Shown here: positions 46,073-64,000 of the stretch, in pieces
How the letters are laid out: each line of letters begins with the position of its first letter
Position numbering within the stretch: position 1 is the stretch's first letter
Assembly: GCA_036924855.1 (NCBI GenBank)
Contig: JBAGRP010000001.1
Coordinates: 1,302,001-1,366,000 of the forward strand
Direction: 5' to 3'
DNA: 64,000 nt
DNA from: Nitrobacteraceae bacterium AZCC 2146
Lineage (GTDB): Bacteria; Pseudomonadota; Alphaproteobacteria; Rhizobiales; Xanthobacteraceae
Program-made: the position numbers and the translations under genes
The notes under the pieces: generated by a model
Told to the model about the DNA's origin: nothing
The model's input: only the letters and a program-made list of their open reading frames with translations
Databases searched by the model: none

Positions 46073-46214
46073 GGCCAACTCTAGCACGAACGGCCAATCG
46101 GGGGAATCGGTCATCTCTAAAGCGGAAGCAATATAGATAAAGGGTGCGACGTTTTTACTGGCGACGAACATACATCGTCATATAACACCGACCTACGAAT
46201 GGTGAGGATAGTCG

Positions 46215-48366: not shown

Positions 48367-48828
48367 TCACTTCAATTCGAACGTAGCCTCGATCTCTACC
48401 GGAACATTTCTTGGCAGAGAGGACGATCCAACGGCTACGCGGACATGGCGGCCGGCATCGCCGAACACCGCGACCATCAAGTCCGACGCTCCGTTGATGA
48501 CTGCCGGATGGTCACGGAATTCAGGCACCGCGTTGACGAAGCCACCGAGCCGAACCACCGAAACCACGCGTTCAAGATCGCCGTCGAGGATCGCGGAAAC
48601 CTGAGCCAACACGTTGATCGCGCAAAGTCGCGCCGCCGCCTGGCCTTCCTCGATTGATACCGTGTCGCCGAGCTTCCCCGTGAAGCGGTCTTTTCCTTCC
48701 CAGCTCGGCACCTGGCCGGCGATGAAGACCAGCGAGCCGATGCGGCGAGCGGGCACATAGTTGGCAGAAGGTATCGACGGCTTCGGCAGTTCGATGCCCA
48801 GGAACAGCAGCCTCTCTTGTATTTTCAT
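48367..48828 (-). CDS. RidA family protein
   Basis: 153 residues from ATG 48828. PARRIGSLVFIAGQVP, KLGDTVSIEEGQAAARLCAINVLAQV, LGGFVNAVPEFRDHPAVINGASDLM and the ending HVRVAVGSSSLPRNVPVEIEATFE keep the Arg and Glu used by RidA deaminases to hydrolyse reactive imines. Its place beside an opine-dehydrogenase-type gene suggests clearing of an enamine/imine intermediate in a nitrogen-compound pathway. The IS debris begins right after its 3' end. Confidence 0.88.
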   Translation of the reverse strand: MKIQERLLFLGIELPKPSIPSANYVPARRIGSLVFIAGQVPSWEGKDRFTGKLGDTVSIEEGQAAARLCAINVLAQVSAILDGDLERVVSVVRLGGFVNAVPEFRDHPAVINGASDLMVAVFGDAGRHVRVAVGSSSLPRNVPVEIEATFELK

Positions 48829-48841
48829 ATCGATTTTTCTT

Positions 48842-49087
48842 TCATTCTCTTTGCAGGCTCTTGAGGCTCGCAAGCGCGTTCACTTCCTGGACCGAACTGG
48901 TCGAGACCTCTGTCAGGGCGCTCCCTATCAAAGCGTGGGTTTGAAAAGCAGCGGAGTTCCAAAAAGCGGTCGCCTCGTCACCAGCGGCGCCATCGACGAA
49001 GTCAAATAGCGTCCGCGGCAGCGTCCGGCGCGCCAGCGCGAGCATGTCATCGATCGTCAGAAGATCCGCAAGTTTCTTGGAGCGCAT
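48842..49087 (-). pseudogene. FMN alpha-hydroxy acid dehydrogenase, N-terminal fragment
   Basis: 81 residues: LLTIDDMLALARRTLPRTLFDFVDGAAGDEATAFWNSAAFQTHALIGSALTEVSTSSVQ matches the first 60-70 residues of lactate/mandelate-dehydrogenase-type FMN enzymes (about 380 residues). The barrel with its FMN and His-Asp catalytic sites is absent, replaced by the RidA gene 14 bases on. It starts three bases after the opine-dehydrogenase gene stop, so it was part of this operon and was cut by deletion. Confidence 0.65.
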
Positions 49088-49090
49088 CGT

Positions 49091-50161
49091 CTATCCCCTC
49101 ACCGCTCCGAGAAGACTCGCCCGTGTCATCCCACCGATGCCCATGCTTTGAGCTGTGCGTCCTTCGCCTGGCACAGCGCCGCAGGCGATGTCGCCGAGGC
49201 GCGATAGCGATGCAGCGACCGGCACCTCGACACCCGCGATATCGGCCAGCGCAAGAAACGGCGTTAATCCGAAGCCAAAATCTTCCATGAAATAGCGGTG
49301 CCGCAACGTGTCCGGACCCTTGATCCGCCGGTTGGCTTCGCCGGCGGATATCGCCGCAGCAAAGTCGTCGGCCGGCGCGTTAGGAGAAACCGTGCCGATC
49401 GCCCGCATCTCCTCGATGACGGAGGGTAACTCGATGCCGAAGGCGGCAGCGACTGCGCGCCGTTCGTCATCGAGGCCTTTCATCACCCGAGTCACGCCCG
49501 GCGTCATCGCGTCGACATAGAAAGTGAAGTCCCCGGCACGCGCCTCGACCCACGCGGCGGCGAGCACCGCTCCGGGCGGATGCAGCACCATGTTGACGTT
49601 CGACAGATCGCAAACCAGCACGTTGTCGGCCTCGACTACACCGGGAAACAGCGTGCGGCCAGCGGCGACCGCCGCCTGGCCGCCTGGCAGACCGGCGCAC
49701 CTAACCCGCTTGGCGCGCCCGGTGATGTTGACCAAATGCGGATGGGATTTCCGGGCGACATAGGTCAGGGTCGACAGTTCAGCAATCGGCGGCGGGCTGG
49801 CAACTTCGGCAAAGGCATGGCGAAACGCCAGCGCTCCCCCGGTATGACCAGGATTGAGCACGATAGGCCGTGTCGATCCCCACCCCACCTGCGCCAGGAG
49901 CGTGGCGACCGGGCCGTGGGACAATGTCGGCAACACGACCACCGCGACTTCCGCGCCGGCAATAGCGCGGCCAAGATCGGCAGTAATGGCCGGGCGAAAA
50001 ACGCCTTCGCCCAGCACGCCCTGATAGGCCACCCCCATCGTCTCGAACGGCGCCAGCGTCTTTGCGGTTCGATTCCATAGCGTCACCTCGTGGCCCGCGA
50101 GCGAAAGCTCCGCCACCGCCGCCGCGCCGCCTGCGCCTGCTCCGATAATAACGACCTTCAT
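49091..50161 (-). CDS. NAD(P)-dependent octopine/nopaline dehydrogenase family protein
   Basis: 356 residues. Rossmann GAGAGGAAAVAELSLAGHEVTLWNR (residues 7-31), then LPTLSHGPVATLLAQ and LNPGHTGGALAF, and the C-terminal opine domain with the catalytic His in NMVLHPPGAVLAAAW. Opine dehydrogenases join or split an amino acid and an alpha-keto acid. In this cluster the reaction may be the oxidative split of an N-carboxyalkyl compound. Strong ribosome site GGAG precedes the ATG. Confidence 0.88.
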   Translation of the reverse strand: MKVVIIGAGAGGAAAVAELSLAGHEVTLWNRTAKTLAPFETMGVAYQGVLGEGVFRPAITADLGRAIAGAEVAVVVLPTLSHGPVATLLAQVGWGSTRPIVLNPGHTGGALAFRHAFAEVASPPPIAELSTLTYVARKSHPHLVNITGRAKRVRCAGLPGGQAAVAAGRTLFPGVVEADNVLVCDLSNVNMVLHPPGAVLAAAWVEARAGDFTFYVDAMTPGVTRVMKGLDDERRAVAAAFGIELPSVIEEMRAIGTVSPNAPADDFAAAISAGEANRRIKGPDTLRHRYFMEDFGFGLTPFLALADIAGVEVPVAASLSRLGDIACGAVPGEGRTAQSMGIGGMTRASLLGAVRG

Positions 50162-50273
50162 CTTTCTCCTGCCTCCACGTCTCGCCCGTCGCGAAGGGCT
50201 GTGTTGTTATCCTGCGCAAGCAGCTGGCGCCGGTTCGGTGATATGCACCCCATCCAAGGTTTCGGCTGGATGC

Positions 50274-51050
50274 TCACTGCGCTGTCCATCCGCCATCGAC
50301 CAGCAACGATGCACCTGTCACCAGGGCCGACGCGTCGGAAGCGAGATAGATGATGGCTCCCATCAAATCCTCAACTGCCCCGATACGCCCGAGACTGATT
50401 TTAGACGTGATAGACTGAAGGGCCGTCTCGTCCAGCCCATAGGACCTGGTCAGCGGCGTATCGATAAAAGTCGGCGCAATGGCGTTCACCCGTATGCCTG
50501 CAGGGCCGAGTTCGATAGCAAGCGCCTTGGTAAGACCCTCTATCGCGAACTTCGATGCGACATAGAGCGAGCGGTTCATAGCTCCTACGTGGCCCAGCTG
50601 CGACGACATGTTGATCAAAGAACCGGGGCGCCCAAGCTCCATCAGGCGGCTCGCCACGTGCTTGGACAGGAAGAATGCCGCGCGCACGTTGAGGTCGAAG
50701 ACCGCATCGAAATCTGCCACTTCGACCAAATGGAGCGGTTTCGGACGGTTAGTGCCTGCATTATTGACGAGAATATCGTAGGGCTCTTCAGCGTCGAGCG
50801 TTTGCTGAACCAGATCCAAATCGGTGATGTCCATAAAGAGTGTGCTTGCGAGGAAGCCTGCAGCTCTGATGGATCCGGCGATTTCCCCGACTTCGTCGGC
50901 CGATCGCGCGCACAGCGTGACGTCCGCGCCCGCCTCTGCCAGCGCAGCCGCGGCGGCGAGTCCGATGCCGCGGCCGGCGCCCGTGACAAGCGCGCGGCGG
51001 CCATCGAGCCTGAAAGACGGCGTTCGAGGCAACACAGAGCCGCTCATCAT
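50274..51050 (-). CDS. SDR family oxidoreductase
   Basis: 258 residues. TGAGRGIGLAAAAALAEAGAD, NNAGTNRPKP, Ser in NMSSQLGHVG and YVASK are all present, so it is a complete classical SDR close to gluconate/2-deoxygluconate dehydrogenases. ATG 51050 overlaps the stop of the preceding Rossmann gene by four bases (ATGA). Substrate unknown; it may oxidise a hydroxyl produced in the molybdenum-hydroxylase pathway. Confidence 0.9.
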   Translation of the reverse strand: MMSGSVLPRTPSFRLDGRRALVTGAGRGIGLAAAAALAEAGADVTLCARSADEVGEIAGSIRAAGFLASTLFMDITDLDLVQQTLDAEEPYDILVNNAGTNRPKPLHLVEVADFDAVFDLNVRAAFFLSKHVASRLMELGRPGSLINMSSQLGHVGAMNRSLYVASKFAIEGLTKALAIELGPAGIRVNAIAPTFIDTPLTRSYGLDETALQSITSKISLGRIGAVEDLMGAIIYLASDASALVTGASLLVDGGWTAQ

Positions 51051-52120
51051 CCGCCCAGACGCGCCCGTAACTCACCCAGCGCTTTCGCGGCGGGTTCAAT
51101 GTCGCGGACGTGAAATCCCGCGGCGAGTTCCTTGCTGTGGGCAGCGATTGCACGTTGAGCGACTTCTGAATAGACAACGCGACCATCCGTGGAGACGCTG
51201 ACGCCATCCGCCGCCTCGAAGCTCTTGTTCCATGTGACAGCGTCCTGCTCCGAGATGCCTTTCGGGAGATTGAGCGACGTTTTGCCCTTCTCCACGGTCA
51301 CAGGATAGCCGCCGGGCAGTCCACCTGGACCGGGAACGTGCGCATTGATCTTGCCATGTCCCGCAAGTGCCAGAAGCACCGGAACGGCCGAAGCACCGGA
51401 AATCACGTTGAGATCTCGGTACGGCAGCTGCACATGACGGGTCATGGCATCGACGTCGGCGATTTCATCATCCCCGATCCAGGCGCGCACTGGCGCCCCT
51501 GTCCGCTCGGTTCCAGGCTTGCGCCATTGCACGAGATGCTGGTGGTGACCAAGCACACGGATATTCTCGCGCTGCGGCTGACTCACAAGACCGGTGATGA
51601 TCGACGAAAAGATGCCGATGTTGCCGACGCCGCACGCGATCGGCAGACCAGCGGCACGTAGCACCTGATTGACGCCGTCGGGATAGCAGGTATTGACGAA
51701 CGTAGCGCCGGCGCCGTCCCGAAGGGCCCGCGAAGTCCTGGACGGAAGAACCGCATGGAAAGCGAGTGTCATGCCGAAGCCGGCGTCGGCCACCAGCTTC
51801 GACCACGCCGAGTCCATGCGATCGACCTTCCACGGGGATTGCATCGAAGCGGACTGCACGACGACAGAGGGCGACACCGCCGCAATGCCCTCGCCCATAA
51901 TCGCCGGCGTAGACGAATCCAGCAGAACTGTCTCGAAGATTGCTTCCGTGCCGAAGTTGGCGGCGCGTGCATTACCCGCTTCCTTCAGCCAGGAAAGTCG
52001 CTCCTTGTTGCGCCCTCCGATGACGACACGAACAGGCCGCTTGGCATGAACAGCGATGTCGCAGATCATGATCTCCGCGAAGTAGCCGGTGCCGATAACA
52101 AGAATATCGCTGTGCTGCAT
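51047..52120 (-). CDS. Rossmann-fold oxidoreductase of unknown specificity
   Basis: 357 residues from ATG 52120, which has GAGGAG seven bases upstream (ATG 52126 is too close). ILVIGTGYFAEIMICDIA is a dinucleotide-binding motif and VVIGGRNKERL the second strand. The rest (FVNTCYPDGVNQVL, GVGNIGIFSSIITGL) recalls saccharopine-dehydrogenase-like or homoserine-dehydrogenase-like folds, but no family can be named with certainty. It is coupled to the SDR and lies 25 bases downstream of the ABC binding-protein gene. Confidence 0.75.
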   Translation of the reverse strand: MQHSDILVIGTGYFAEIMICDIAVHAKRPVRVVIGGRNKERLSWLKEAGNARAANFGTEAIFETVLLDSSTPAIMGEGIAAVSPSVVVQSASMQSPWKVDRMDSAWSKLVADAGFGMTLAFHAVLPSRTSRALRDGAGATFVNTCYPDGVNQVLRAAGLPIACGVGNIGIFSSIITGLVSQPQRENIRVLGHHQHLVQWRKPGTERTGAPVRAWIGDDEIADVDAMTRHVQLPYRDLNVISGASAVPVLLALAGHGKINAHVPGPGGLPGGYPVTVEKGKTSLNLPKGISEQDAVTWNKSFEAADGVSVSTDGRVVYSEVAQRAIAAHSKELAAGFHVRDIEPAAKALGELRARLGG

Positions 52121-52145
52121 GTCCATACTCCTCGTTAAGCTCTCA

Positions 52146-53126
52146 TCACTTCAGGAAGTCGTTCGTGAAGACCTTCGACACGTCCGTCTTCTCCTTCATC
52201 ATTTCCATGCCGACCAGCTGTGTCTGCAGTTCTTCCCATGCCGCTTTGGTCGAATGGCCGAGGCCATTGGCCTTGGCGTCGCTCGATGCAGTGAGCTTCA
52301 AGACCTCCGGCAGCTTCATTTCGGCATACACCTTGTCGGTCGATGGATTGGCCTTGATGAAGGCTTCATAGGCATCCTTCGGATTGGCAATCGCGCTGCT
52401 CCAGCCCCTCATGAAGGCGCGGGTGAAACGCTTCACCAGATCGGGCTTCTCCTTAATCAGCTCCGCATTCGTCACCAGCGAGGTGGAATACATCTTCATG
52501 CCGAGATCCTCGAGAAGGATCCAGTCTACCTTCTCGCCAGTGGCGCGAAGCTTGAGCGCATCGTTAAAGTAGAAGCCGACGCCTACATCGATCCGGTCGG
52601 ACGCCATCAATGGTACCAGCGCGCCGTCAGCGGGAACTTCCTTGAACTTGCCGGCGTCAAGCTTGAGGTCCTTCTTCAGGGCTTCCCACTGTTTGCCGGT
52701 GCTGCTCTTGAGCTGCACGCCGATGGTCTTGCCATAGAGGTCCGTCTTGGCATCCTTGATATTCTGGGTCGTCTTGAAGATCAGCGCCGTCGGGTTTTGC
52801 TGCAGCACCACCGCAGTCGAGACCAGCGGCAGCCCGCGCGCTGCAGCGATCAACACCTGGTCAGCCGTCGCATAGCCAAAATCGGTATCGCGGTTTCCCA
52901 CCAGCTTGACGGTGACGGAAGATCCTTCGCCCGGCATCAGTTCGATCTCGATGTTTTCGTCCTTGAAATACCCCTTCTCTATGGCGAGGAAGATTGGGGA
53001 ATGCTCCGAACCGTAGACCCAATCGAGACGGAGCTTGACCTTGTCGGCCGCCTGCACGGCGCCGGTCGACAGTATGATGCCGTGGAAAAGTGCGGCGCCC
53101 AGGACCAACTTCTTGAAAGTGTTCAC
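52146..53126 (-). CDS. NMT1/THI5-like ABC substrate-binding protein
   Basis: 326 residues from GTG 53126, with GGAGGAG six bases upstream (TTG 53132 is an alternative). The signal peptide NTFKKLVLGAALFHGIILSTGAVQA precedes VKLRLDWVYGSEHSPIFLAIEKGYFKDENIEIELMPGEGSS, the pyrimidine/riboflavin precursor-type NMT1 fold. The LDW-aromatic binding pocket suits a heterocyclic ligand such as a pyrimidine or riboflavin-like ring. It is the binding component for the permease and ATPase encoded upstream. Confidence 0.92.
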   Translation of the reverse strand: MNTFKKLVLGAALFHGIILSTGAVQAADKVKLRLDWVYGSEHSPIFLAIEKGYFKDENIEIELMPGEGSSVTVKLVGNRDTDFGYATADQVLIAAARGLPLVSTAVVLQQNPTALIFKTTQNIKDAKTDLYGKTIGVQLKSSTGKQWEALKKDLKLDAGKFKEVPADGALVPLMASDRIDVGVGFYFNDALKLRATGEKVDWILLEDLGMKMYSTSLVTNAELIKEKPDLVKRFTRAFMRGWSSAIANPKDAYEAFIKANPSTDKVYAEMKLPEVLKLTASSDAKANGLGHSTKAAWEELQTQLVGMEMMKEKTDVSKVFTNDFLK

Positions 53127-53177
53127 GATCAACTCCTCCGATTGAGGCCAATTTGCCCATTGCTGCGAAAAACCTGG

Positions 53178-53951
53178 TCACATCGTCGCCTGAACGCCCG
53201 ATTCATCTGACCCCTGCGGAAGAAACAGCCGCTCCAGCAGTAGGATGACGAGATAGAGGGCGATGCCGAGAATGCTCATACAGATGATGGCGGCGAACAT
53301 CAGCTCGGTGTCGAGTGAAATGTTCGATGCGTTGATGACGTAACCCAGGCCTTCGCCGGCCGCGACGAATTCACCGACGACAGCGCCGACGATCGCCAGC
53401 GTGATCGATATCTTCAGGGCAGCGAAGAAATACGGCATCGCCCACGGCAGGCTGATCTTGGAAAACTTCTCCCAACCATTGGCGCCGAGAGAGTCCATAT
53501 ACTGCAGCAGTTCGGAATCGACCGATGTCAGGCCCTTTGCCGTGTTGATCACGATCGGAAAGAACGCGATCAGCGCGGCGATCACCACCTTCGGCGTGAG
53601 GCCAAACCCGAACCAGATCAGGAACAATGGCGCGAAAGCGATCTTCGGGAGAATCTGCGCTGCGACCAGGAACGGATAGGTCAGATCACGTACGATCTTC
53701 GAATAGGCGATGGCCACCGCGATGAAGAAGCCGGTAACGACCGCACTGAGGAAACCCAGCGAGATCGCGACGAATGTCGGCCAGGTGTTCTTCAGCAGCA
53801 ACGCACGATTTTCATAGGCGACTTCCGCGACGCGCGTTGGCGGGGGAAGGATCACCGGCTTGATGTGCAACACGTGAACCAGTACTTCCCAAATCGCGAA
53901 GAAGACGACGAACACCATGATCTGGCCGACAATGACGGATGCGCGATACAT
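53178..53951 (-). CDS. ABC transporter permease (SsuC/TauC type)
   Basis: 257 residues with six membrane helices. The EAA loop is DSLGANGWEKFSKISLPWAMPYFFAALKISITLAIVGAVVGEF (about residues 150-192), typical for nitrate/sulfonate/taurine/NMT1 transporters. It forms the channel with the ATPase at 53954. The C-terminal tail is short. The stop of the ATPase gene lies two bases upstream, so they are coupled. Confidence 0.94.
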   Translation of the reverse strand: MYRASVIVGQIMVFVVFFAIWEVLVHVLHIKPVILPPPTRVAEVAYENRALLLKNTWPTFVAISLGFLSAVVTGFFIAVAIAYSKIVRDLTYPFLVAAQILPKIAFAPLFLIWFGFGLTPKVVIAALIAFFPIVINTAKGLTSVDSELLQYMDSLGANGWEKFSKISLPWAMPYFFAALKISITLAIVGAVVGEFVAAGEGLGYVINASNISLDTELMFAAIICMSILGIALYLVILLLERLFLPQGSDESGVQATM

Positions 53952-53953
53952 GT

Positions 53954-54760
53954 TCAGGCGCCTTCCATCTCGGGCCGCTTGGCGACTGGCTGTCTGAGCA
54001 GGCTACGGACGTGACCGGCCAGCTCCGTAAACTTCGGCAGTTCGCGCATCTCCTCGCGGCGCGGTCGCGCAAACGGCACGTCGATCCGCTCGAGTACCCT
54101 TCCGGGGCGTGCGGACATGACAATGATTTGCTCGGACAACAGGATCGCCTCGGGAATCGAATGGGTGATGAAGACGACGGTCGTTTCGGTCTGCGCCCAG
54201 AGTTGCAGCAGTTCGCCCTGCAGCGTCTCGCGGGTGATTTCGTCAAGCGCCGCAAACGGTTCATCCATCAGCAGGATCTTGGGCTGGAAGGCCAGCGCGC
54301 GGCAGATCGAGACGCGCTGCTGCATGCCGCCGGACAATTCGTGCGGCATGCGATGTTCGAAGCCTTCGAGGCCGGCAATCCTTAGCCAGCGCCGCGCCTG
54401 TTCCTCGCGCTCGGCCTTGCCCATGCCGCGCCGTGCCACTTCGAGCGTCAGCATTACATTGTCTAGTGCCGACCGCCACGGCAGCAACAGCGCGCGCTGG
54501 AAGACGTAGCCCACCTGGCCCTGCACCTTGCCTTTGTTGATCGCCTCGCCGTCGAACAGCACCCGCCCGCCGGACGGCTGCAGAACGCCGGACAGGACCT
54601 TGAGCAACGTCGTCTTGCCGCAGCCGGACGGCCCGACGACGCTGAGGAAGGAGCGCGACGGAATCTTGAACGAGACATTGTCCAGCGCCGTGACAATGCC
54701 GGTCTTGCTCTTGAAGCTGACCGAAAGGTCCTCGATGCTGATGGCAGGCGCGCTGGACAT
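53954..54760 (-). CDS. ABC transporter ATP-binding protein (SsuB/TauB type)
   Basis: 268 residues. Walker A GPSGCGKTTLLKVLSG (about residues 39-54), Q-loop FQRALLLPW, signature LSGGMQQRVSICRAL, Walker B ILLMDEPFAALDEITR and H-loop FITHSIPEAI are complete. It powers the NMT1-type importer. It follows the M24 gene by four bases and precedes the permease by two, in one operon starting at 57.1 kb. Confidence 0.96.
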   Translation of the reverse strand: MSSAPAISIEDLSVSFKSKTGIVTALDNVSFKIPSRSFLSVVGPSGCGKTTLLKVLSGVLQPSGGRVLFDGEAINKGKVQGQVGYVFQRALLLPWRSALDNVMLTLEVARRGMGKAEREEQARRWLRIAGLEGFEHRMPHELSGGMQQRVSICRALAFQPKILLMDEPFAALDEITRETLQGELLQLWAQTETTVVFITHSIPEAILLSEQIIVMSARPGRVLERIDVPFARPRREEMRELPKFTELAGHVRSLLRQPVAKRPEMEGA

Positions 54761-54764
54761 GGGC

Positions 54765-55928
54765 TCAGCCGATCCGGATCAGTTTGTCGGTATCGGTCAC
54801 GTCCGACAGCAGCTCCGATCCCATCGCGGTGATCAGCATCATGTCCTTGTTCTGCACACCGAAGCCGTAGCCGGTGCGGTAGCAGAGCGGTTCGAAGCCA
54901 AGCACCATGTTCTCCTCGAGCACAGCCGACTTGCCCGGCTGTCCCAGCAGCGGCGTTGCGCCGATATAGGGGTCTTCGTGCAGATGAAGCCCGATGCCGT
55001 GACCGACAAAAGAGATCGGCGGCAGGTTCCTGGCGATCAGCCGATCGACAAAATCCTGATAGATGGCAAGGCAGTCGGCGCCGGGCTTGGCCAGCTCCAG
55101 AATCCGGTACTTGCAGTCCACCATGAGCTGCCAGATTTCTTCCGCCATTGCGGGCGGTTCCTCGACATAGGCGGTCCGACAGACGCCGGCTTGGTAGCCC
55201 CCGATCACCGAGAAGATTTCCACGCGACAGATGTCGCCGCGTTCAAGGCGACGGTCGGTGGGGCCGACATTGGGAAGCTGGCTGCGCGGGCCTGTCGCGG
55301 TGATTAGTAGCTTGAAATTCTCGGCGCCCAGTTCATAGACGTTCTTGGTCAGATGAGCCGCAATCTCCAGCTCCGTGCTACCAACCTTGACGCTCGCCAG
55401 CGCGTCCCCGATCGCCTGATCGGCGATCCGGGAAAGCCGCCGCAGCAGGGCAATCTCATCACGCGTCTTCAACTGGCGAAGACGGGACAGAATCTTGTCG
55501 GCGGCAACGAATGTTGCCTTCGGCATCGACGCCGTCAGACGCGCAAAGTCGCCGGCCGGCAGATATTCCAGCTCGATGCCGATGCGGCCGGACGTCAGTC
55601 CGGCATGGCCGAGTGCATCTGCTAGCACTGTCATCGGATCCTCGGAAAATTCTTTCCAGATCGCCAGCGGCACGCCCGGTGCCTCGCGCGCGACCGTGGT
55701 CTCCTCCATATCCACCGCAAACAGCGAAAGGCTCGCATCGGTCTTGACAATGGCCATCGCATGCCGATGCCGCAGCAATGGCTGCGAGGGGATTACAAAG
55801 CCTGCGGCATAGGCGAAATTTTCGGGCGAGCACGACACGATGGCGTCAAGGCCCTGCTCCAGCATCGCACGTGCCTGGCGCATCAGGATTTCCGCGCGCA
55901 AGCCTTTCACTTTAGGCTCCATGTTCAT
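54765..55928 (-). CDS. M24 (creatinase/prolidase-fold) protein lacking metal ligands
   Basis: 387 residues with the creatinase N-terminal domain and pita-bread C-terminal domain. The metalloprotease ligand set is changed: first Asp is Glu237 (RVEIFS), second Asp is Gly248 (QAGVCRT), and the last Glu is Lys361 (QNKDMML); His310 (GHGIGLHLHEDP) and Glu346 (GFEPL) remain. Loss of three of five ligands is the state seen in creatinase-like metal-free hydrolases. It probably hydrolyses a C-N bond of a guanidino, ureido or cyclic amide compound, not a peptide. ATG overlaps the enolase-family stop by four bases. Confidence 0.9.
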   Translation of the reverse strand: MNMEPKVKGLRAEILMRQARAMLEQGLDAIVSCSPENFAYAAGFVIPSQPLLRHRHAMAIVKTDASLSLFAVDMEETTVAREAPGVPLAIWKEFSEDPMTVLADALGHAGLTSGRIGIELEYLPAGDFARLTASMPKATFVAADKILSRLRQLKTRDEIALLRRLSRIADQAIGDALASVKVGSTELEIAAHLTKNVYELGAENFKLLITATGPRSQLPNVGPTDRRLERGDICRVEIFSVIGGYQAGVCRTAYVEEPPAMAEEIWQLMVDCKYRILELAKPGADCLAIYQDFVDRLIARNLPPISFVGHGIGLHLHEDPYIGATPLLGQPGKSAVLEENMVLGFEPLCYRTGYGFGVQNKDMMLITAMGSELLSDVTDTDKLIRIG

Positions 55929-57085
55929 AGCGTCACCTTGTACTTTTCGAGCTTCGCTTCATCGACGGCGATCCCCATGCCGGGCTCCGTAGGCACCATG
56001 ATTGCGCCATCGACAAGCGAAAGACCTTCCGAGAGCAGATCGTCGCGATAGTAGATGCCTCCGATCTTGCCGTTCTGCTGTTCGGCCGGTGTCGATACCG
56101 GCACCACATTGGACAGCGTCACGGCTGCGGCGGCCGCGGCGAGATGAATGTTGGCGAGATTGCCCACTCCGGTCTCGACGGACCCGTTTACGTTGCAGAT
56201 GATCCCGGCCGCGCGGCATACGGCAGCGACCTCCATTGCCCTGTACAACCCGCCCGGCTTCGTCGAGTAAATCGAGACGATCTGGGCGGCCTTCTTCTCA
56301 ATGATCTGGATGACGTCGTGCGAATTCCACGCCGACTCGTCGGCCATCACGGGCGCATCAATGGCTCGGGCGACCTCGGCGATCCGCTCGATTCCCATAA
56401 CCGGCTGCTCGACATATTTCAGGCCGAACTTTTCCATCCGGCGGATCACCTGGATCGCCTCGCCTGGCGTCTTGTAACCTTCGTTGGCATCGACGCAGAT
56501 TTCGACGCCGGCGCCTGCAGCCGCACGCACTTCACCAACAATCTTCACGTCACGATCCGGATCAACCCCGATCTTGACCTTGATGGTTTTGACGCCCTCG
56601 CTGGCCACCTTGGCAGACTCGGTCGCGGCTTCCTCAACGGAGATCAGGCCGATGGAGTGCGTGACCAGCACGCGGTCACGAACCTTGCCTCCAAGAAGGG
56701 TGTGCACGGGAACGCCCAGCCATTTGCCACTCAGATCGAGATAGGCAAATTCGACAGCGGCCTTCGAATACGGATAGCCCTTCATGCACGCATCCATTCG
56801 CGCATGCAGATCGGCCACGTTGCCCAACTCCATCCCGGTCACGGTGGGCGCCATGTAATTGGAAATGATGAGCTGTGCGATCGAAACGCTTTCGCCGAAG
56901 TAGCGGCCGAACTCGCCGCCCCAATCCTTCAAGGCTGGCGCTTCACCCCAGCCAACGTGACCTTCATCGTCGGTCATTTTGATAATCAGATAGCGACCGA
57001 TCGGCTCCGTTAGCCCCGTCCATTGATGGACACGACGGGTCGGCAGCTGAACGGCGAAGGTCTCGATAAGTCGGATAACGGGCAA
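55925..57085 (-). CDS. Mandelate racemase/muconate lactonizing enzyme family protein
   Basis: 386 residues from TTG 57085 (GGAG eight bases upstream); the open frame extends to GTG 57109 but that lies inside the operator. The capping domain is followed by the barrel with KTIKVKIGVDPDRD (catalytic Lys pair), metal ligands in ICVDANEGY, YVEQPVMG and MADESAW, and the second Lys in YSTKPGG, as in the MLE/dipeptide epimerase subgroup. It abstracts a proton alpha to a carboxylate to racemise or cycloisomerise the substrate. First gene of the leftward operon. Confidence 0.9.
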   Translation of the reverse strand: MPVIRLIETFAVQLPTRRVHQWTGLTEPIGRYLIIKMTDDEGHVGWGEAPALKDWGGEFGRYFGESVSIAQLIISNYMAPTVTGMELGNVADLHARMDACMKGYPYSKAAVEFAYLDLSGKWLGVPVHTLLGGKVRDRVLVTHSIGLISVEEAATESAKVASEGVKTIKVKIGVDPDRDVKIVGEVRAAAGAGVEICVDANEGYKTPGEAIQVIRRMEKFGLKYVEQPVMGIERIAEVARAIDAPVMADESAWNSHDVIQIIEKKAAQIVSIYSTKPGGLYRAMEVAAVCRAAGIICNVNGSVETGVGNLANIHLAAAAAAVTLSNVVPVSTPAEQQNGKIGGIYYRDDLLSEGLSLVDGAIMVPTEPGMGIAVDEAKLEKYKVTL

Positions 57086-57102
57086 GACGGATACTCCAAT
57101 CG

Positions 57103-57121
57103 TGACCACACTTTGTGATCA
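57103..57121. promoter_or_regulatory. Operator site 1 (TGACCACA-N3-TGTGATCA)
   Basis: 8-3-8 dyad with one mismatch, just upstream of the TTG start of the leftward enolase-family gene, in position to repress it. Same pattern as 57270-57288 and 61189-61207. Likely bound by a GntR-type or similar regulator not encoded in the window. Confidence 0.75.
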
Positions 57122-57270
57122 CACTCGTCGCCCGTCAATGCTCCGCCGTCGCGCGTTTGCAGAAAATAGTCGCATTGACGGCAATTGAATTGGGCATCGG
57201 CAATCAATTTAGGCAGGCTCGGCCACCACTCTTCAACGGTTGCGTTGCGGGTTGACACTTCAACGAATAG

Positions 57271-57287
57271 GATCACAATATGTGATC
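57271..57287. promoter_or_regulatory. Operator site 2 (GATCACA-N3-TGTGATC)
   Basis: Perfect 7-3-7 dyad upstream of the rightward molybdenum-hydroxylase genes. Its centre is 167 bases from the centre of site 1, close to 16 helical turns, so looping between the two is conceivable. Confidence 0.75.
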
Positions 57288-57366
57288 ACACTCTTCATAG
57301 TTTGCTTGGCTTGATCATGACGAACGCCCCCGCGATGAGCCGCGCACCCCCGGAAATTCTTTGCTC

Positions 57367-58239
57367 ATGAAGCTTGCACCTATCACTTACCATCGAGCCG
57401 ACAGCCTGGCGGATGCGGTCTCGCTGCTCGTCAACTACAAGGGCGACGCAAAACTAATAGCCGGCGGGCAAAGCCTCATGCCGATGCTCGCGTATCGTCT
57501 TCTTGCGCCCGACGCGCTGATCGATATTGGCCGCATCGATGAGTTGAAAACGATTCGAATTGATGCAGCAGGTATTCGAATAGGCGCCTGTGTGCGGTGG
57601 TGCGACATTGAGCGACATTCCGATATTGCGAACGGCTATCCCCTTCTCCACTACGCTATCCGTCACATCGCCCATTACCAAGTGCGAAACCGCGGCACGA
57701 TCGGCGGCAGCCTGGCGCATGCCGATCCGGCGGCGGAATTTGCAGCAGTTGTGCTGGCCTGCAGCGGCATCATGGAGATTCGCGGCAGAGATGGCACACG
57801 TTTCATTGAAGCTGACCATTTCTTCCGCGGCCTGCTAACCACCGACCTGCAGGACGACGAGGTTATTGTCGCCGTGAGGCTGCCGCCATGGGACCCGTCC
57901 TATCGTTGGGGCTTTAAGGAGTTCGCCCGCAGAAGCGGTGACTTCGCACTTGCAGGTGTGTCCCTGCAGTTCAGCCTTGAGTACGGACGCGCTGTTCGGT
58001 CCCGTATCGTCGGCTTTGGCGTCGCGGACCGGCCCGTTATCCTTTCGCAAGCGCAGGCGGTTCTCGACGGCGCAGAGCCCGATGCTCAAGCGATTGCTCG
58101 GGTTGCGGCCGCCGCGCAACGAGAAGTGGATCCCCCGGACGATCCGCACGCGCCATCTGAATATCGCCGGGCGTTGCTGGGGACGTTGCTGGAAAGAGCC
58201 TTGGTTGAGGCCCTTGCACGTGCGCGAGAACCCTCGTGA
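57367..58239 (+). CDS. Molybdenum hydroxylase FAD-binding subunit (CoxM type)
   Basis: 290 residues from ATG 57367. The FAD pyrophosphate loop AGGQSLMPMLAYRL (about residues 33-46) and the flavin loop TIGGSLAHADPAAEF (about 112-126) are intact, with the usual C-terminal CO-dehydrogenase-flavoprotein domain. It takes electrons from the Fe-S subunit to FAD. It is first in a three-gene operon and overlaps the next gene by four bases (GTGA). Operator site 2 lies about 80 bases upstream. Confidence 0.93.
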   Translation: MKLAPITYHRADSLADAVSLLVNYKGDAKLIAGGQSLMPMLAYRLLAPDALIDIGRIDELKTIRIDAAGIRIGACVRWCDIERHSDIANGYPLLHYAIRHIAHYQVRNRGTIGGSLAHADPAAEFAAVVLACSGIMEIRGRDGTRFIEADHFFRGLLTTDLQDDEVIVAVRLPPWDPSYRWGFKEFARRSGDFALAGVSLQFSLEYGRAVRSRIVGFGVADRPVILSQAQAVLDGAEPDAQAIARVAAAAQREVDPPDDPHAPSEYRRALLGTLLERALVEALARAREPS

Positions 58240-58742
58240 CAAACCCGACAAGAGTGAATTTTACCGTGAATGGTGTTCCATCAAAGGTTCTTGTCGAACC
58301 CCGCAGGACGCTGGCTGATTGCCTACGGCACGATTTGAACCTGACCGGAACACACGTCGGTTGTGAGCACGGAGTGTGTGGCGCCTGCACCGTCATCGTG
58401 GATGGCGACGCCGTTCGATCTTGTCTGATGCTGGCCGTGCAGGCTGAGGGCGGCAATCTTGCCACTGTCGAGAGTTTAGGGTCTGCAGAATCGATGTCTG
58501 TCCTTCAGCAGGCATTCCAGGACAATCATGCCCTACAATGCGGCTTTTGCACTCCCGGCATCCTCATGACGGCTCATGCCCTCCTTGGTCGCGAGCCGCG
58601 GGCAAGCGACGAACGCATTACGGAGGTCCTCTCGGGCAACATATGTCGCTGCACCGGCTATATTCCCATTGTCAAAGCGATCGCGCAGGCGCGGAATATT
58701 CTCGCGGATGCATCACGAGGACCGCACAGTGAAGACGTCTAA
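58236..58742 (+). CDS. Molybdenum hydroxylase [2Fe-2S] subunit (CoxS type)
   Basis: 168 residues from GTG 58236. The plant-type cluster is HVGCEHGVCGACTVIVDG ... CLML and the second cluster LQCGFCTPGILMTAH ... GNICRCTGY, all eight Cys present. It relays electrons between the molybdopterin site and FAD. Overlaps the large-subunit start by 14 bases. Confidence 0.96.
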   Translation: MTNPTRVNFTVNGVPSKVLVEPRRTLADCLRHDLNLTGTHVGCEHGVCGACTVIVDGDAVRSCLMLAVQAEGGNLATVESLGSAESMSVLQQAFQDNHALQCGFCTPGILMTAHALLGREPRASDERITEVLSGNICRCTGYIPIVKAIAQARNILADASRGPHSEDV

Positions 58743-61083
58743 CAGCAATACGTATGTCGGGAGCCCGCTTCTCCGGACGGAAGACCCGCGCCTCTTGACG
58801 GGAGGCGGCTGCTTTCTGGACGACCTGCACAGGCCCGGGACGCTTCACGCGGTCGTGGTGCGCAGCCAAGTCGCCCACGGCATGCTGCGCGGCATCGATT
58901 CAACCGCGGCACGAGCCCTCAGAGGTGTCCATGCAATTTTCTGCGCTTCTGATATCGAGGGCGAGCTCGGAAGGATCCCTATCCGCATCGCGCCACTGGC
59001 GGGTACCGAGCCCTATTGCCAGCCGATTATAGCATCCGGCAAGGTCCGCTACGTGGGCGAACCCGTTGCGATTGTCATCGCGGAGAGCCAGGCGATCGCC
59101 GAGGACGCCGCCGGTCTCATCGACATTGACATTGATCCATGCGCTCCGATTGCGACAGCAGCTGCCGGCGAGCAGGATAAGTCCATTCTGTTCGAAGAAA
59201 CCGGCACCAACATTGCTTCGCAATACCGCATAGGTCGTGGTGACATCGAAACGGCTTTCGCCCAAGCGTCCTATATCCGCCGCGAGCGGTTTTCTGTCCA
59301 GCGCCACACGGCGATGCCCATGGAAATGCGAGGCCTGCTCGCCGAATGGGATCCCGAGCGCGGCCACATGACGGTATGGGGCGCTGCAAAGGTGCCGTTT
59401 TTCAATCGAAAAACCCTCGCCGGAATGCTGTCGCTGCCTCATGAAAAAGTGGACCTGATCGAGCTCGATGTCGGCGGTGGTTTCGGAGTTCGGGGCGAGT
59501 TCTACCCGGAAGATTTCCTTGTGCCATTCGCGTCGCGCCGACTCGGCCGCCCGGTCAAGTGGCAGGAAGACCGGCGCGAACACATGATGGCCACGGTCCA
59601 TTCGCGGGAGGTCTGCTGCGATCTGGAGATCGCATGTTCGGCCACAGGGCTGGTGCTCGGGCTGCGCGCCCGGGTCATTGCGGATCTCGGTGCCTATATG
59701 AGCACCACCGGCGGCATTCTGGCCTCGCGGACCGGCCAGTTTCTCCCAGGTCCCTACCGCATCCCCCACGTCGGGCTCGAAGTGCTGTCCGTGGTCACCA
59801 ACAAGACCCCTGCCGGCAGCTACCGTGGGCCGGGCCGCTTTGAATCGAGTTTTTTCCGCGAGCGCCTGTTTGACATCGCCGCCCGCGAGCTCGGCATCGA
59901 CCCGGTCGAGTTCCGACGGCGCAACCTGGTCACCAGCGCCGAACTTCCCTACGCGATCGGCCAGCTCGTGCCCTATGAGGGCGAGACCAGCTATGATTGC
60001 GGCGACTATCCCGCCGTGATGGAACGGTGCACCAGTGAAATCGGCTGGACCGAAAAATTATCCTTGCGCGGTCAGCTGATCGATGGCCGCTACCATGGCC
60101 TCGGTATCGGCTGCTTCGTGGACAGCAGCGGCGCCGGCCCCAAGGAAAATGCCCGATTGCGGATGGAAGCGGCGGGGCGAATTTCGGTATTCGTGGGATC
60201 CTCCGCGCTGGGTCAGGGAATCGAGACGGCATTCGCCCAGATCTGCGCCGACGCCCTGCAGATTCCGATGGACCGCATCTCTATCTTTCACGGATCGACG
60301 ACCCTGCTTGCGGAGGGCTTCGGATCCTTTCATTCGCGTTCGATGATCATGGGTGGCAATGCGATTGTCGATGCCGCCAACCGTCTGATCGAAATATGCC
60401 GCGGAATTGCTGCAGAAAAATGGGCCTGCGCAGTCGAAACGATCGCCTATGCCGACGGTACGTTTCGCGCCGGACAGCGACGCCCCCTGGGACTCGCGGA
60501 CCTGACGACGGCTGATGGCGCAGCCATCGAATCGCACGGCTCTTTCGGTACCAAGGCGAAGCCCTTCAGCTACGGCACCCACGCCGCGCACGTCGCCGTG
60601 GATATTGCAACGGGACATGTGGCACTGCTGGACTACGTCGCGGTGGAGGATGTCGGCCGCATGATCAATCCCATGATCGTGCAAGGTCAGAAGATCGGAT
60701 CGATCGTCCAGGGACTGGGCGGCGTATTTCTGGAAAATCTGCTCTATGACGATCAGGCGCAACTGCTGACCGGCTCGCTCGCGGACTATCTGCTGCCGAC
60801 CTCGACGGATTTCCCAAGAATCCGCGCGATCACGCTCGACCTAACTCGCACCACGCGCAATCCGCTCGGCGTAAAGGGAGCGGGCGAGGATGGAATCTCG
60901 CCGGTGGCGGGCGTCATCGGCAATGCGATCGCCGATGCGCTGTCGGCATTTCACGTTGAGCCGTGCGAGCTGCCCATTACGCCGGCGGCGCTCTGGAAAC
61001 TGATTCAGAAGAGCCAAGGTGCATCCACGGCGCTTGCAGATGAAGGTCCCAGTCTCAATCGATCTGCCGCCCCACACGTCTGA
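58729..61083 (+). CDS. Molybdenum hydroxylase large subunit (CoxL/XdhB type)
   Basis: 784 residues from GTG 58729 (GAGGA seven bases upstream; ATG 58708 is an alternative). Molybdopterin-binding segments are GGGFGVRGEFYPED, KTPAGSYRGPGRFESSFFRERL and GQGIETAFAQI. The catalytic Glu is in KGAGEDGISPV near the C-terminus. The GSYRGPG replaces the AYRCSFR loop of true CO dehydrogenase, so this enzyme hydroxylates an organic substrate, likely a nitrogen heterocycle or aldehyde. Frame complete. Confidence 0.94.
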   Translation: MKTSNSNTYVGSPLLRTEDPRLLTGGGCFLDDLHRPGTLHAVVVRSQVAHGMLRGIDSTAARALRGVHAIFCASDIEGELGRIPIRIAPLAGTEPYCQPIIASGKVRYVGEPVAIVIAESQAIAEDAAGLIDIDIDPCAPIATAAAGEQDKSILFEETGTNIASQYRIGRGDIETAFAQASYIRRERFSVQRHTAMPMEMRGLLAEWDPERGHMTVWGAAKVPFFNRKTLAGMLSLPHEKVDLIELDVGGGFGVRGEFYPEDFLVPFASRRLGRPVKWQEDRREHMMATVHSREVCCDLEIACSATGLVLGLRARVIADLGAYMSTTGGILASRTGQFLPGPYRIPHVGLEVLSVVTNKTPAGSYRGPGRFESSFFRERLFDIAARELGIDPVEFRRRNLVTSAELPYAIGQLVPYEGETSYDCGDYPAVMERCTSEIGWTEKLSLRGQLIDGRYHGLGIGCFVDSSGAGPKENARLRMEAAGRISVFVGSSALGQGIETAFAQICADALQIPMDRISIFHGSTTLLAEGFGSFHSRSMIMGGNAIVDAANRLIEICRGIAAEKWACAVETIAYADGTFRAGQRRPLGLADLTTADGAAIESHGSFGTKAKPFSYGTHAAHVAVDIATGHVALLDYVAVEDVGRMINPMIVQGQKIGSIVQGLGGVFLENLLYDDQAQLLTGSLADYLLPTSTDFPRIRAITLDLTRTTRNPLGVKGAGEDGISPVAGVIGNAIADALSAFHVEPCELPITPAALWKLIQKSQGASTALADEGPSLNRSAAPHV

Positions 61084-61188
61084 CCGCGATCAACTTTAGC
61101 GACGGCGCCGCAATAACGAGGCCTGCCCCGTTTCGCGCCAAATGCCTGCAGTTTCTGCCGATCATTTCACCTTGACCCTCACTAGCTG

Positions 61189-61207
61189 TGATCACACACT
61201 GTGATCA
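61189..61207. promoter_or_regulatory. Operator site 3 (TGATCACA-N3-TGTGATCA)
   Basis: Perfect 8-3-8 dyad 25 bases upstream of the binding-protein ATG 61233, overlapping the likely promoter. It shows that the second importer belongs to the same regulon as the molybdenum hydroxylase and the enolase/M24/importer operon. Confidence 0.8.
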
Positions 61208-61232
61208 GTATTCTTCGTGAGGAGAGAACTTC

Positions 61233-62306
61233 ATGGCTGACAGACTCAAAGACACTCATGCGATATCGCTAAGAATGTCCCGCCGGCGAGCCATTGCGGG
61301 CGGAGCGGCGTTGGCGTTCACGCTACCGTTTGCGCACTCCAGCCTCGCGCAGGCGCGCAAATCCATCACCAGCACGGTAGTCGGCGGCACTTTCCAAAAA
61401 GTCTACGACGAGACCCTAGTGAAGCCTTTCGAGGCGGCCAACAATGTAGATGTCGCCCTGAAGATCGGCTCTCCGAACGAGTGGCTTGCCAGCGCCATTA
61501 TGAACCGCTTCGCCCCGGAGCTTGACGTCCTATTGTTGCCGTATCCGGATTCGATCCGCGCCGTGAAGGCTGGTATCTGCGAAGAATTGACAGTGGCCGA
61601 ATTGCCGAACTTGGCCGACGTTTATCCCCAGTTCATCGATGGCTATGCAAAGCAAGGCGTCGGCATCGACTTTATCAGTTTCGGACTGATCCATCGCACC
61701 GACTCCAAGCTGGCAAAGCCCGTCTCCTGGATGGATTTATTCAAACCGGAGTACAAAGGCAAAATCGCCATTCCCACCCTGTCGATTTCCGGCGGAGTGC
61801 AGTTCCTGCTGACCATGGCCCAACTGCATGGTGGCAGCGTAGATAACATCGAGCCAGGCTTCGAAGCCGTGAAGCGCATGAAGCCGAACATCATGCGCTT
61901 CTATACGAGCAAATCCGAAGGACAGCAGATCATGGAACGGGGCACCGCCGCGCTTATCATGGGCGAGCACAATGTCGCCGCCGCCCTGATCGATAATGCC
62001 GTGCCAATCGAATTCCTGACGCCCGCGGAAGGCGTGATGGTTGGCATGATTTCGCTTCACGTCGTGAAAAACTCGAAGAACACCCAGGCTGCCAAGAACT
62101 TTGTGAATTTCACCATCTCGAGTGAGGCGAACGGTGCTTTCAACAGCCGGCTGATCGCGGGCCCCACCAACAAGAAGGTCGTCCTCAAACCCGAAATCGC
62201 GGCGCGCATACCAACCTATGAGCATCTGCTGTTTCCCGACTGGAACAAGATTGTCGACAGGTTGCCGACCTGGTTGGAACGCTGGAATCGGGAAATCGTC
62301 GGCTGA
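61233..62306 (+). CDS. Polyamine-type ABC substrate-binding protein with Tat signal
   Basis: 357 residues. A twin-arginine signal SRRRAIAGGAALAFTLPFAHS (about residues 16-36) precedes a PotD/PotF-like fold: VVGGTFQKVYDETLVKPFEAANN, FKPEYKGKIAIPTLSISGG, MGEHNVAAALID. Such proteins bind small organic cations or related nitrogen compounds. GAGGAGAG is before ATG 61233. It shares one base with the permease start (TGATGG). The Tat route suggests folding before export. Confidence 0.93.
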   Translation: MADRLKDTHAISLRMSRRRAIAGGAALAFTLPFAHSSLAQARKSITSTVVGGTFQKVYDETLVKPFEAANNVDVALKIGSPNEWLASAIMNRFAPELDVLLLPYPDSIRAVKAGICEELTVAELPNLADVYPQFIDGYAKQGVGIDFISFGLIHRTDSKLAKPVSWMDLFKPEYKGKIAIPTLSISGGVQFLLTMAQLHGGSVDNIEPGFEAVKRMKPNIMRFYTSKSEGQQIMERGTAALIMGEHNVAAALIDNAVPIEFLTPAEGVMVGMISLHVVKNSKNTQAAKNFVNFTISSEANGAFNSRLIAGPTNKKVVLKPEIAARIPTYEHLLFPDWNKIVDRLPTWLERWNREIVG

Positions 62307-63181
62307 TGGAAGACCGATTGGCCCCTTGGATGCGAGCAACTCTACTACTGACGCCGGCGGCGTTGCTCGTTGCGCTTTTTATGCTGGCGCCAATTGGCTT
62401 ACTGCTGGCCTACAGCTTGCTGCCGGCCAATACGATGGCGCTGACCGCCGCCGGCGGCGTAACCTTGCACAACTATGGGCGCCTGCTGCTGGACTGGTAT
62501 TACCTGCGGATCATCGGATCGACGATGATCATGAGCCTGATCGTCACCCTGGCTTCCGTCGTGATCGCTTGGCCGCTGGCTTATTTTCTGTGGCGATCAT
62601 CGAAGCGCTGGCGCCCGATTCTGACGATGGGACTTCTTGCGCCGCTGCTGGTCAGCATTCCCATTCGCAACTATGGCTGGGTCGTGCTTCTCGACCAGCA
62701 GGGCATCATCAACCAGACACTCATATGGTTGGGGATCACCGCAAGCCCGATCGAACTGGTTCATTCGGATTTCGGAATGGTACTGGGCCTGACCCATGTG
62801 CTGATGCCGTTTGTCGTGCTGTCGGCACTGGCGACACTCGACCGGGTCAATTTCAACATTGTCGATGCGGCGCGGACGCTCGGCGCCGGGCGTCTTCGCG
62901 TAGCGATGGAAATCGTTTTTCCTCTCGCTGTGCCGGGCATCGTTAGTGGGGCGATCTTGGTGTTCTGCATCGCGATCTCGTCGTACGTGACGCCCGCGCT
63001 TATGGGACGCGGTGGCACCTCGGTGGCAACGCTGCTGATCTATGAGCAATTCATGAAAAACTTCGACTGGCCATTTGGTGCGGCGATTGCAATTTTCTTG
63101 GTCGCTGTGTCGGGATTGGTGCTGATGACATCGCTGTGGGGTGCCAACCGCTATTTCGGTCGTCTGGTGCGGGGCATTTGA
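62306..63181 (+). CDS. ABC transporter permease (PotB type)
   Basis: 291 residues with six predicted helices. The EAA loop is DAARTLGAGRLRVAMEIVFPLAVPGIVSGAILVF (about residues 190-223), as in spermidine/putrescine permeases. ATG 62306 shares its A with the stop of the binding-protein gene. Forms a heterodimeric channel with the next permease. Confidence 0.94.
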   Translation: MEDRLAPWMRATLLLTPAALLVALFMLAPIGLLLAYSLLPANTMALTAAGGVTLHNYGRLLLDWYYLRIIGSTMIMSLIVTLASVVIAWPLAYFLWRSSKRWRPILTMGLLAPLLVSIPIRNYGWVVLLDQQGIINQTLIWLGITASPIELVHSDFGMVLGLTHVLMPFVVLSALATLDRVNFNIVDAARTLGAGRLRVAMEIVFPLAVPGIVSGAILVFCIAISSYVTPALMGRGGTSVATLLIYEQFMKNFDWPFGAAIAIFLVAVSGLVLMTSLWGANRYFGRLVRGI

Positions 63182-63182
63182 C

Positions 63183-63968
63183 GTGAGAGTGGCTTACAAA
63201 ATCCTCATCGCGTGCCTCTATGCATTCGTGTTCGCTCCAATTGTCATTATTTTGATCCTTTCCTTCAACAGCGGAAAAGGCATCTCGCTGCCTATCAGCG
63301 GTCTGTCGTTGCGCTGGTACGCCGCTGCGCTGACTGATCGCACCTTCACCGGTCCCCTGATCACCAGCCTGTGGTTGGCGGCCGGCGCGACTGCGATGGC
63401 CCTGCCGCCGGCGATCCTCGCTGCGCTGGCCTTGTCGCGGAAGAATTTTCGCGGTGCGGCCGCCGTCGAGGTGCTCCTGATGGCTCCCCTCCTGGTGCCG
63501 ACCATCGTCATCGGCATGGGCCTGCTGATCTACTTTTCGCTGATTGGGCTGCAAAACGCCCCGCTGCGGCTGCTGCTCGCGCACTGGCTGATCGTATTTC
63601 CTTACTGCACACGCACCGTCCTGGCGAGCCTGGCGCGCATGGACCGAACCCTGATCGAAGGCGCGCGCAGTCTAGGTGCCACGCCGCTCCGGGCTTTCCT
63701 GTATGTGACTCTCCCGATGATCTCGCCGGGCATCATCGCCGGCGCCCTGTTCGGCTTCATCATCTCGTTCGGTGACGTGCCTGTCTCGCTGTTCCTCGCG
63801 AACGCCCGGACCACCACGCTGCCACTCACCATCATGTCTTCGCTGGAGTACCAAATGGATCCCAGCGTCATCGCCATGTCGGCTCTGGTAATATTCGGAA
63901 GCTTCGCGCTGGCGCTGGTCGGAGAACGTCTGGTCGGTCTTCATTCCTTGCTCGGAGCCAAATCGTGA
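63183..63968 (+). CDS. ABC transporter permease (PotC type)
   Basis: 261 residues from GTG 63183, one base after the preceding stop. Helix 1 is AYKILIACLYAFVFAPIVIILILSF and the EAA loop is EGARSLGATPLRAFLYVTLPMISPGIIAGALFGF. PotC-type partner of the first permease. Its TGA overlaps the ATPase start by four bases (GTGA). Confidence 0.94.
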   Translation: MRVAYKILIACLYAFVFAPIVIILILSFNSGKGISLPISGLSLRWYAAALTDRTFTGPLITSLWLAAGATAMALPPAILAALALSRKNFRGAAAVEVLLMAPLLVPTIVIGMGLLIYFSLIGLQNAPLRLLLAHWLIVFPYCTRTVLASLARMDRTLIEGARSLGATPLRAFLYVTLPMISPGIIAGALFGFIISFGDVPVSLFLANARTTTLPLTIMSSLEYQMDPSVIAMSALVIFGSFALALVGERLVGLHSLLGAKS

Positions 63969-64000
63969 AAGAACTTTCGATCGACCAGGCGACCAAGCGT
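63965..64000 (+). CDS. ABC transporter ATP-binding protein, 5' end only
   Basis: GTG 63965 opens the frame KELSIDQATKR, the usual beginning of a PotA-like ATPase before its first beta strand. Only 12 codons are in the window. Identity rests on operon position after two PotBC-type permeases, so it is inference. Confidence 0.65.
   Translation, partial: MKELSIDQATKR

Follow-up and report, generated by a model that had tools for sequence, protein, structure and literature searches.

Do the genes at positions 48367-63968 of a 64,000-nucleotide stretch from Nitrobacteraceae bacterium AZCC 2146 make up a single catabolic system and, if so, for what kind of compound? The stretch, referred to as the window, covers positions 1302001-1366000 of a single-contig genome of 7.64 Mb. 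A sequence-only reading of it had proposed one co-regulated block for the breakdown of a nitrogen-containing compound, including a molybdenum hydroxylase, a metal-free hydrolase of the M24 family, an MLE-type enolase, an opine-dehydrogenase-family enzyme, an SDR enzyme, RidA and two importers. All of these genes are indeed there, as judged by family matches and, for the twin-Arg signal of one binding protein, by eye. Our analysis indicates a catabolic regulon that is real, well delimited and apparently undescribed, and the conserved core of the cluster is made up of the MLE enolase, the M24 hydrolase and the octopine-dehydrogenase-family enzyme (OpDH), usually together with a GntR regulator. 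As for its purpose, we see about an even chance that this is a mobile, GntR/FCD-controlled regulon for degrading a small nitrogenous organic acid by a logic resembling that of creatinine or ectoine breakdown.

The question of common control can be addressed through the operators. Namely, a tandem palindrome of the form TGTGATCACA-N3-TGTGATCACA lies ahead of the MLE gene (57101-57123, CGTGACCACACTTTGTGATCACA), ahead of CoxM, the first gene of the molybdenum hydroxylase (57268-57290, TAGGATCACAATATGTGATCACA), ahead of the binding-protein gene PotD (61187-61209, TGTGATCACACACTGTGATCAGT) and, past the end of the window, ahead of the gene of a GntR/FCD regulator (69803-69825; this and all other coordinates beyond 64000 are extrapolated from the adjoining stretch, L009). 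Perfect copies of the single palindrome occur in the window at 57114, 57281 and 61187, with no further copy at up to one mismatch. By count alone these three copies are not significant, since shuffled versions of the window hold 1.40 matches on average and 20 of 100 shuffles reach three. The tandem pattern, allowing up to 3 mismatches, is found at 5 places in the 7.64 Mb, namely the four just listed and a second cluster discussed below, and the reversed control of the pattern is found at 0 places genome-wide. Perfect single palindromes number seven in the genome, three of them in the block and two in the second cluster; of the remaining two, one lies inside a regulator-like ORF, where the tandem appears only at 4 mismatches, and the other next to a different GntR gene, where it falls in the upstream portion of a listed ORF.

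The same operator marks related clusters in Xanthobacter, Aminobacter, Shinella, Nitratireductor, Chelativorans, Variovorax and others, for which we compared stretches reaching about 10 kb to each side of the locus. In 24 such stretches, some of them from closely related strains, all 85 sites with at most one mismatch lie outside reference-set genes and 0 inside, the reference set being the genes of these clusters only and all other genes counting as outside; four control palindromes gave outside/inside counts of 1/0, 13/4, 0/1 and 8/12. A partner palindrome 13 bp away accompanies 74 of the 85 sites and is missing from 11, with about 0.4 partners expected. Unrecognised ORFs contain three of the 85 sites; for two of these (L016 and L048, same gene) the ORF is a ferredoxin-reductase-like gene. 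One stretch, L013, has no operator site; it begins inside the cluster, and the MLE promoter there probably lies beyond the end of the contig. The regulator itself (69965-70702) carries a GntR helix-turn-helix (HTH; PF00392, 39.3 bits) and an FCD domain (PF07729, 80.1 bits), both above the gathering score, and in its relatives other than the second copy the HTH is conserved at 61-70%, as against 41-56% for the FCD domain. Because of the shared operators, the proposed co-regulation holds, including that of the molybdenum hydroxylase and both importers: the tandem sites stand at the promoters of the block and are rare elsewhere in the genome. A single GntR/FCD-controlled regulon, with predicted binding of the regulator to the operator, is thus well supported; the regulator is probably a repressor, and we infer that the regulon is mobile.

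What stays together from genome to genome? In the 21 loci that have the MLE-M24 pair, OpDH is present in 19 and GntR in 16 stretches. A further protein of the block, ORF4 (51047-52126, minus strand), which the sequence-only reading had left out of its otherwise correct gene list, has relatives at 14 loci of named genomes; MLE and M24 are in 12 of these stretches, OpDH in 11, GntR in 10, and full-length LldD ORFs (384-408 aa) in 10. The two without MLE are L013 and Variovorax L021, which is at a left contig end and also lacks OpDH; the L015 and L016 stretches stop before the position that OpDH has on a related plasmid. At E <=1e-40, and always counting the window's own genome, the ORF4 family occurs in 8 of 397 genomes of the order, 3 of 385 in the class sample and 2 of 398 in the phylum sample, and within the genus sample in that one genome out of 18. 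Six of the eight order-level hits (40-41% identity; L037-L042) belong to a distant clade (39-44% identity; L037-L044 and L049-L051) that we rejected as a core cluster; its stretches hold no MLE, M24 or OpDH, and the neighbours there are an AMP-ligase gene and, in most cases, genes of an enoyl-CoA hydratase and of a Pot-type transporter. Its hosts (L037-L043, L049-L051) include Bosea, Chelatococcus and Sagittula. Also rejected as core loci were L052 (ORF4 at 30%), where MLE and M24 are merely distant (24 and 27%), and L067, with MLE at 46% and M24 at 32% only.

The MLE protein recurs at 68% identity or more in 5 of the 397 order genomes, plus one at 46%, and 13 plasmid records carry it at 60-80% identity. 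We opened four of these plasmids, from Shinella HZN7, Phyllobacterium zundukense, Aminobacter aminovorans and Aminobacter MSH1. Their clusters run from MLE, M24 and an amidohydrolase through a variable trio (D-amino-acid dehydrogenase, malate synthase G and an HbpS/GlcG-like protein) to OpDH and a DpaA-like protein, followed by a hydantoinase-like amidohydrolase, a 227-residue protein, a 4-OT tautomerase and an isochorismatase-VOC fusion. Both Aminobacter plasmids have the trio, Shinella has none of the three, and in Phyllobacterium it is in pieces, with HbpS not seen. In Shinella and A. aminovorans the clusters continue with a cytosine-deaminase-family enzyme (PRK07583), GntR, RidA, CobW and an NMT1-type importer; the MSH1 cluster has a binding protein right after the fusion. 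Identities between window and plasmid proteins are 73% for MLE, 67% for M24, 77% for the amidohydrolase, 58% for OpDH, 67% for DpaA, 70% for VOC, 53% for GntR, 68% for RidA and 71% for SDR. For the isochorismatase part of the fusion, the closest entries are cysteine hydrolase, RutB, N-carbamoylsarcosine-amidase-related and biuret-hydrolase ones, and the fusion ties the VOC protein to a ureido-hydrolase-like partner. The 227-residue protein (L047:25922-26605 and relatives, annotated as 'resolvase' or hypothetical) matches no Pfam or NCBIfam family. Some relatives of the cluster add a hydantoinase, an N-carbamoyl-hydrolase-like isochorismatase, a hydantoin-racemase-family protein, a D-amino-acid dehydrogenase or a malate synthase.

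A second copy of the cluster, 83-89% identical to the first, lies at 6.80 Mb in the same genome, with GntR (90% identity) divergent from MLE (89%), M24 at 94%, the importer's ATPase at 99%, its permease at 95% and its binding protein at 93%, SDR at 84%, OpDH at 90% and RidA at 93%, and without ORF4. The LldD-like FMN 2-hydroxy-acid oxidase gene is broken in both copies, differently in each, as it is an 81-codon remnant in the window (48842-49087, minus strand) and frameshifted in the second copy. Adjoining that copy (6786001-6824000; L062, L063) are an ErtD equivalog, a hydantoin-5-propionate amidohydrolase scoring 789 bits against a cut-off of 600, as well as an NtaA-type monooxygenase, two fumarase-superfamily lyases and a DctA-type transporter.

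Turning to the enzymes themselves, the M24 protein (54765-55928, minus strand; ectoine hydrolase/creatinase-like fold) has a creatinase N-domain and an altered metal site. Namely, three of the five ligand positions are changed, Asp to E237, which is a mild change, Asp to G248 and Glu to K361, and all three are identical in the 120 of 120 homologs listed; the subfamily also has an invariant cysteine. With the five-ligand dinuclear site lost, the protein is predicted to belong to the metal-free class. OpDH (49091-50161, minus strand) matches PF02317 at 120 bits against a cut-off of 30, and its best match in the PDB is 1bg6, N-(1-D-carboxylethyl)-L-norvaline dehydrogenase (CENDH), at E 2.3e-45 and over the full length (4-354); one His, which we take to be the catalytic one, is invariant in 20 loci. 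What sets it apart within the CENDH/octopine-nopaline dehydrogenase family is its place in a catabolic operon, alongside a racemase and hydrolases. The MLE protein (55925-57109, minus strand; PF13378/PF02746; true start probably slightly downstream of the listed GTG) keeps the KxK plus second Lys acid-base pair and the D/E/D metal ligands, at the positions expected for the superfamily, in all 22 rows (21 distinct genes). Members of its subgroup (N-acylamino-acid racemases, dipeptide epimerases, muconate cycloisomerases) top its PDB list, and it falls below every listed NCBIfam cut-off (mucon_cyclo, 215.7 vs 334.95). ORF4 has no Pfam or NCBIfam family match; the matches listed for its model are led by malate/lactate dehydrogenases, which makes it a probable NAD(P)-type dehydrogenase of that fold. 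A saccharopine-like role, after the UniRef name of its homologs, seems less likely; no saccharopine dehydrogenase is among the model matches listed. RidA (48367-48828, minus strand; YjgF_endoribonc, PF14588, 88.8 bits) is imine deaminase-like and has 62-77% identity to its counterparts in related clusters of other genomes; a start at 48828 is more likely than the listed TTG at 48873.

How could these enzymes work together? The gene content, the operator, the conserved core and the altered metal site are direct results of the computation; the route that follows is our best reading of the families. A small nitrogenous organic acid would be imported, and the amidohydrolase and the metal-free M24 protein would hydrate and open a ring of the cyclic amidine or hydantoin type. 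MLE would then racemise or epimerise the alpha-carbon of an N-substituted amino acid, OpDH, perhaps with the DpaA-like and ORF4 dehydrogenases, would form an imine by oxidising the C-N bond, and RidA would split this imine by hydrolysis into a 2-oxo acid and an amine. The substrate is best read as a chiral cyclic amidine or hydantoin-like compound or an N-substituted amino acid, with an opine-type C-N oxidation presumably coming last. The sequence-only reading had listed C-N hydrolysis, racemisation, opine splitting and clean-up by RidA, an order that would fit the enzyme families.

Among the closest described systems is creatinine and creatine degradation, in which, according to PMC8864220, a hydantoinase and N-carbamoylsarcosine amidase act on one branch and creatinase on the other. 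The likeness lies in the metal-free M24 hydrolase and deaminase-type amidohydrolase here and in the hydantoinase-like and N-carbamoyl-hydrolase-like families in relatives of the cluster. That said, the creatinine enzymes are not close homologs of those of the cluster, which adds a racemase, OpDH, the DpaA-like and ORF4 dehydrogenases and a GntR operator; no creatinine-pathway equivalog was found here, only the families, and hydantoinase and N-carbamoylsarcosine amidase were not seen in the locus. By analogy, a compound related to creatine but chiral and N-substituted would go well with a racemase and an opine-type dehydrogenase. Ectoine utilisation (DoeA/EutD) differs too, with M24 at 74.2 bits against the DoeA cut-off of 613 (TIGR02993) and no other Doe/Eut family above its cut-off among the genes scanned. 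The isochorismatase domain near RutB in relatives recalls the pyrimidine (Rut) system, yet it scores 81 against a cut-off of 378, and the hydantoinase-type enzyme in relatives recalls the hydantoin step of ergothioneine breakdown, yet it scores 207 against the ErtD cut-off of 600. In the open-access literature searched, which leaves subscription papers aside, no description of the gene set, the motif or the candidate substrates turned up, in agreement with the earlier claim that no described pathway has this set.

Would a different kind of substrate explain the locus as well? The sequence-only reading had taken ring hydroxylation as the defining first step, and one can extend this to catabolism of an N-heteroaromatic acid, with the molybdenum hydroxylase acting on a pyridine- or pyrimidine-like ring, the amidohydrolase and M24 opening it, and MLE, 4-OT and RidA processing the product. 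The hydroxylase consists of CoxM, the FAD subunit (57361-58239), CoxS, the 2Fe-2S subunit (58236-58742), and CoxL, the molybdopterin subunit (58729-61083), all on the plus strand. Among PDB entries CoxL is nearest to those acting on N-heterocycles, 6-hydroxypseudooxynicotine dehydrogenase and quinoline 2-oxidoreductase (7dqx, E 7e-148; 1t3q, E 2e-121), and it is not an aerobic CO dehydrogenase by the curated cut-offs (360 vs 991 and 558 vs 950); the operator stands at both the CoxM and the PotD promoters, and a 4-OT is present. However, an operator-adjoining CoxL-type gene was seen in just one of the 21 MLE-M24 loci, that of the window, in stretches from which a hydroxylase more than about 10 kb from the core would escape, and the block shows no recognisable ring-cleavage dioxygenase. 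Three other MLE-M24 loci have a distant CoxL (32-34% identity) without an operator site. The context of the Variovorax SRS16 CoxL (47% identity) was rejected, with IclR regulators and oxoprolinase-type genes and no core gene annotated. The hydroxylase is therefore not the basis of the conserved pathway, the claim of a defining ring hydroxylation is not supported, and we regard an N-heteroaromatic acid as an unlikely substrate; the enzyme would be a local add-on, probably extending the range to an N-heteroaromatic precursor.

Rather unlikely, too, is catabolism of aminopolycarboxylates or opine metallophores, in which carboxyalkyl groups would be stripped from the nitrogen of a secondary-amine polycarboxylate (opine, EDDS-, NTA- or aspergillomarasmine-like). 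Genes in other relatives fit it and speak against a creatinine-like route: NtaA-type monooxygenases in L018, L020 and L023, argininosuccinate-lyase-family proteins nearest EDDS lyase in L022, and, in Variovorax L021, a diaminopropionate ammonia-lyase gene that immediately follows ORF4 (499.5 against a cut-off of 276). OpDH's own family membership, hosts such as Chelativorans and Chelatococcus, which we take to be chelator degraders, and the D-amino-acid dehydrogenase with malate synthase G, which suggest glyoxylate as a product, point the same way. However, most loci lack such genes and we found none in the block itself, the metal-free M24, the amidohydrolase and the hydantoinase would have no obvious role, and the two L022 lyases match EDDS lyase at 218 and 237 bits only, so that we rejected them as the enzyme itself and count them as relatives. 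Aspergillomarasmine catabolism and catabolic genes for glycation products are not apparent from the open-access papers listed. It is improbable, in our view, that the core is an undescribed pathway for glycation-type or opine-like N-carboxyalkyl or hydroimidazolone amino acids; there, the amidohydrolases would open creatinine-like rings, for instance of arginine glycation products, M24 would cleave the amidine, MLE would handle the racemic carboxyalkyl centre and OpDH would free pyruvate or glyoxylate and an amino acid. This, like a uric-acid-like substrate, is speculation. Finally, transporter types vary among loci (NMT1, Pot, Tct) and accessory genes swap, as one would expect of a scavenging regulon without a single pathway, whose importers and enzymes are loosely related and serve a mixture of amino-acid derivatives; yet MLE, M24 and OpDH stay together under a dedicated operator, and we consider such a regulon very improbable.

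The rest of the block completes the two operons. The minus-strand genes run from 57109 to 48367 in the order MLE, M24, the NMT1-type importer (ATPase, 53954-54760, PF00005; permease, 53178-53951, PF00528; NMT1/THI5-type binding protein, 52146-53132, PF09084, 164 bits), ORF4, the SDR oxidoreductase (50274-51050, PF13561), OpDH, the LldD remnant and RidA. The plus-strand operon starts at 57361 and leads from CoxM, CoxS and CoxL to PotD, with its Tat-like twin-Arg signal (61233-62306), and the permeases PotB (62306-63181) and PotC (63186-63968), followed by the PotA-type ATPase, of which only the start is inside the window (63965-64000, ending at 65068). It extends about 4 kb past the window end, with an amidohydrolase of the deaminase/TrzA type (65122-66552), the DpaA-like dehydrogenase (66619-67506), the 4-OT tautomerase (67521-67715) and the VOC protein (67715-68098). 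In other words, the extent first proposed for the block was right for the genes it named and incomplete beyond the window end, where these four genes and the regulator lie. Between VOC and GntR there is a frame-disrupted GMC oxidoreductase gene on the opposite strand (L009:5626-6719). By eye, transposase-like genes follow GntR and two transposase-like ORFs precede the block (45137-46171 and 47160-48094); between the latter two lies a carbon-nitrogen hydrolase of the nitrilase family (46215-46985), with no operator nearby. Further upstream, positions 327-34041 hold many acyl-CoA dehydrogenase, enoyl-CoA hydratase, CoA-transferase, thiolase and CoA-ligase-like ORFs, again by eye, and look like a separate CoA-ester catabolic region.

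What does this mean for the bacteria that carry the cluster? The operator precisely bounds a catabolic regulon from sequence alone, across alpha- and beta-proteobacteria, and turns generic annotations, such as Xaa-Pro peptidase, enolase or opine dehydrogenase, into a testable pathway. The regulon also offers a metal-free M24 subfamily with an invariant cysteine and an MDH-fold dehydrogenase family to which neither Pfam nor NCBIfam gives a name. The ligand of the regulator would reveal the substrate and, if this were an opine, a chelator or a glycation product, a gap in the recycling of nitrogen by soil bacteria would be filled.

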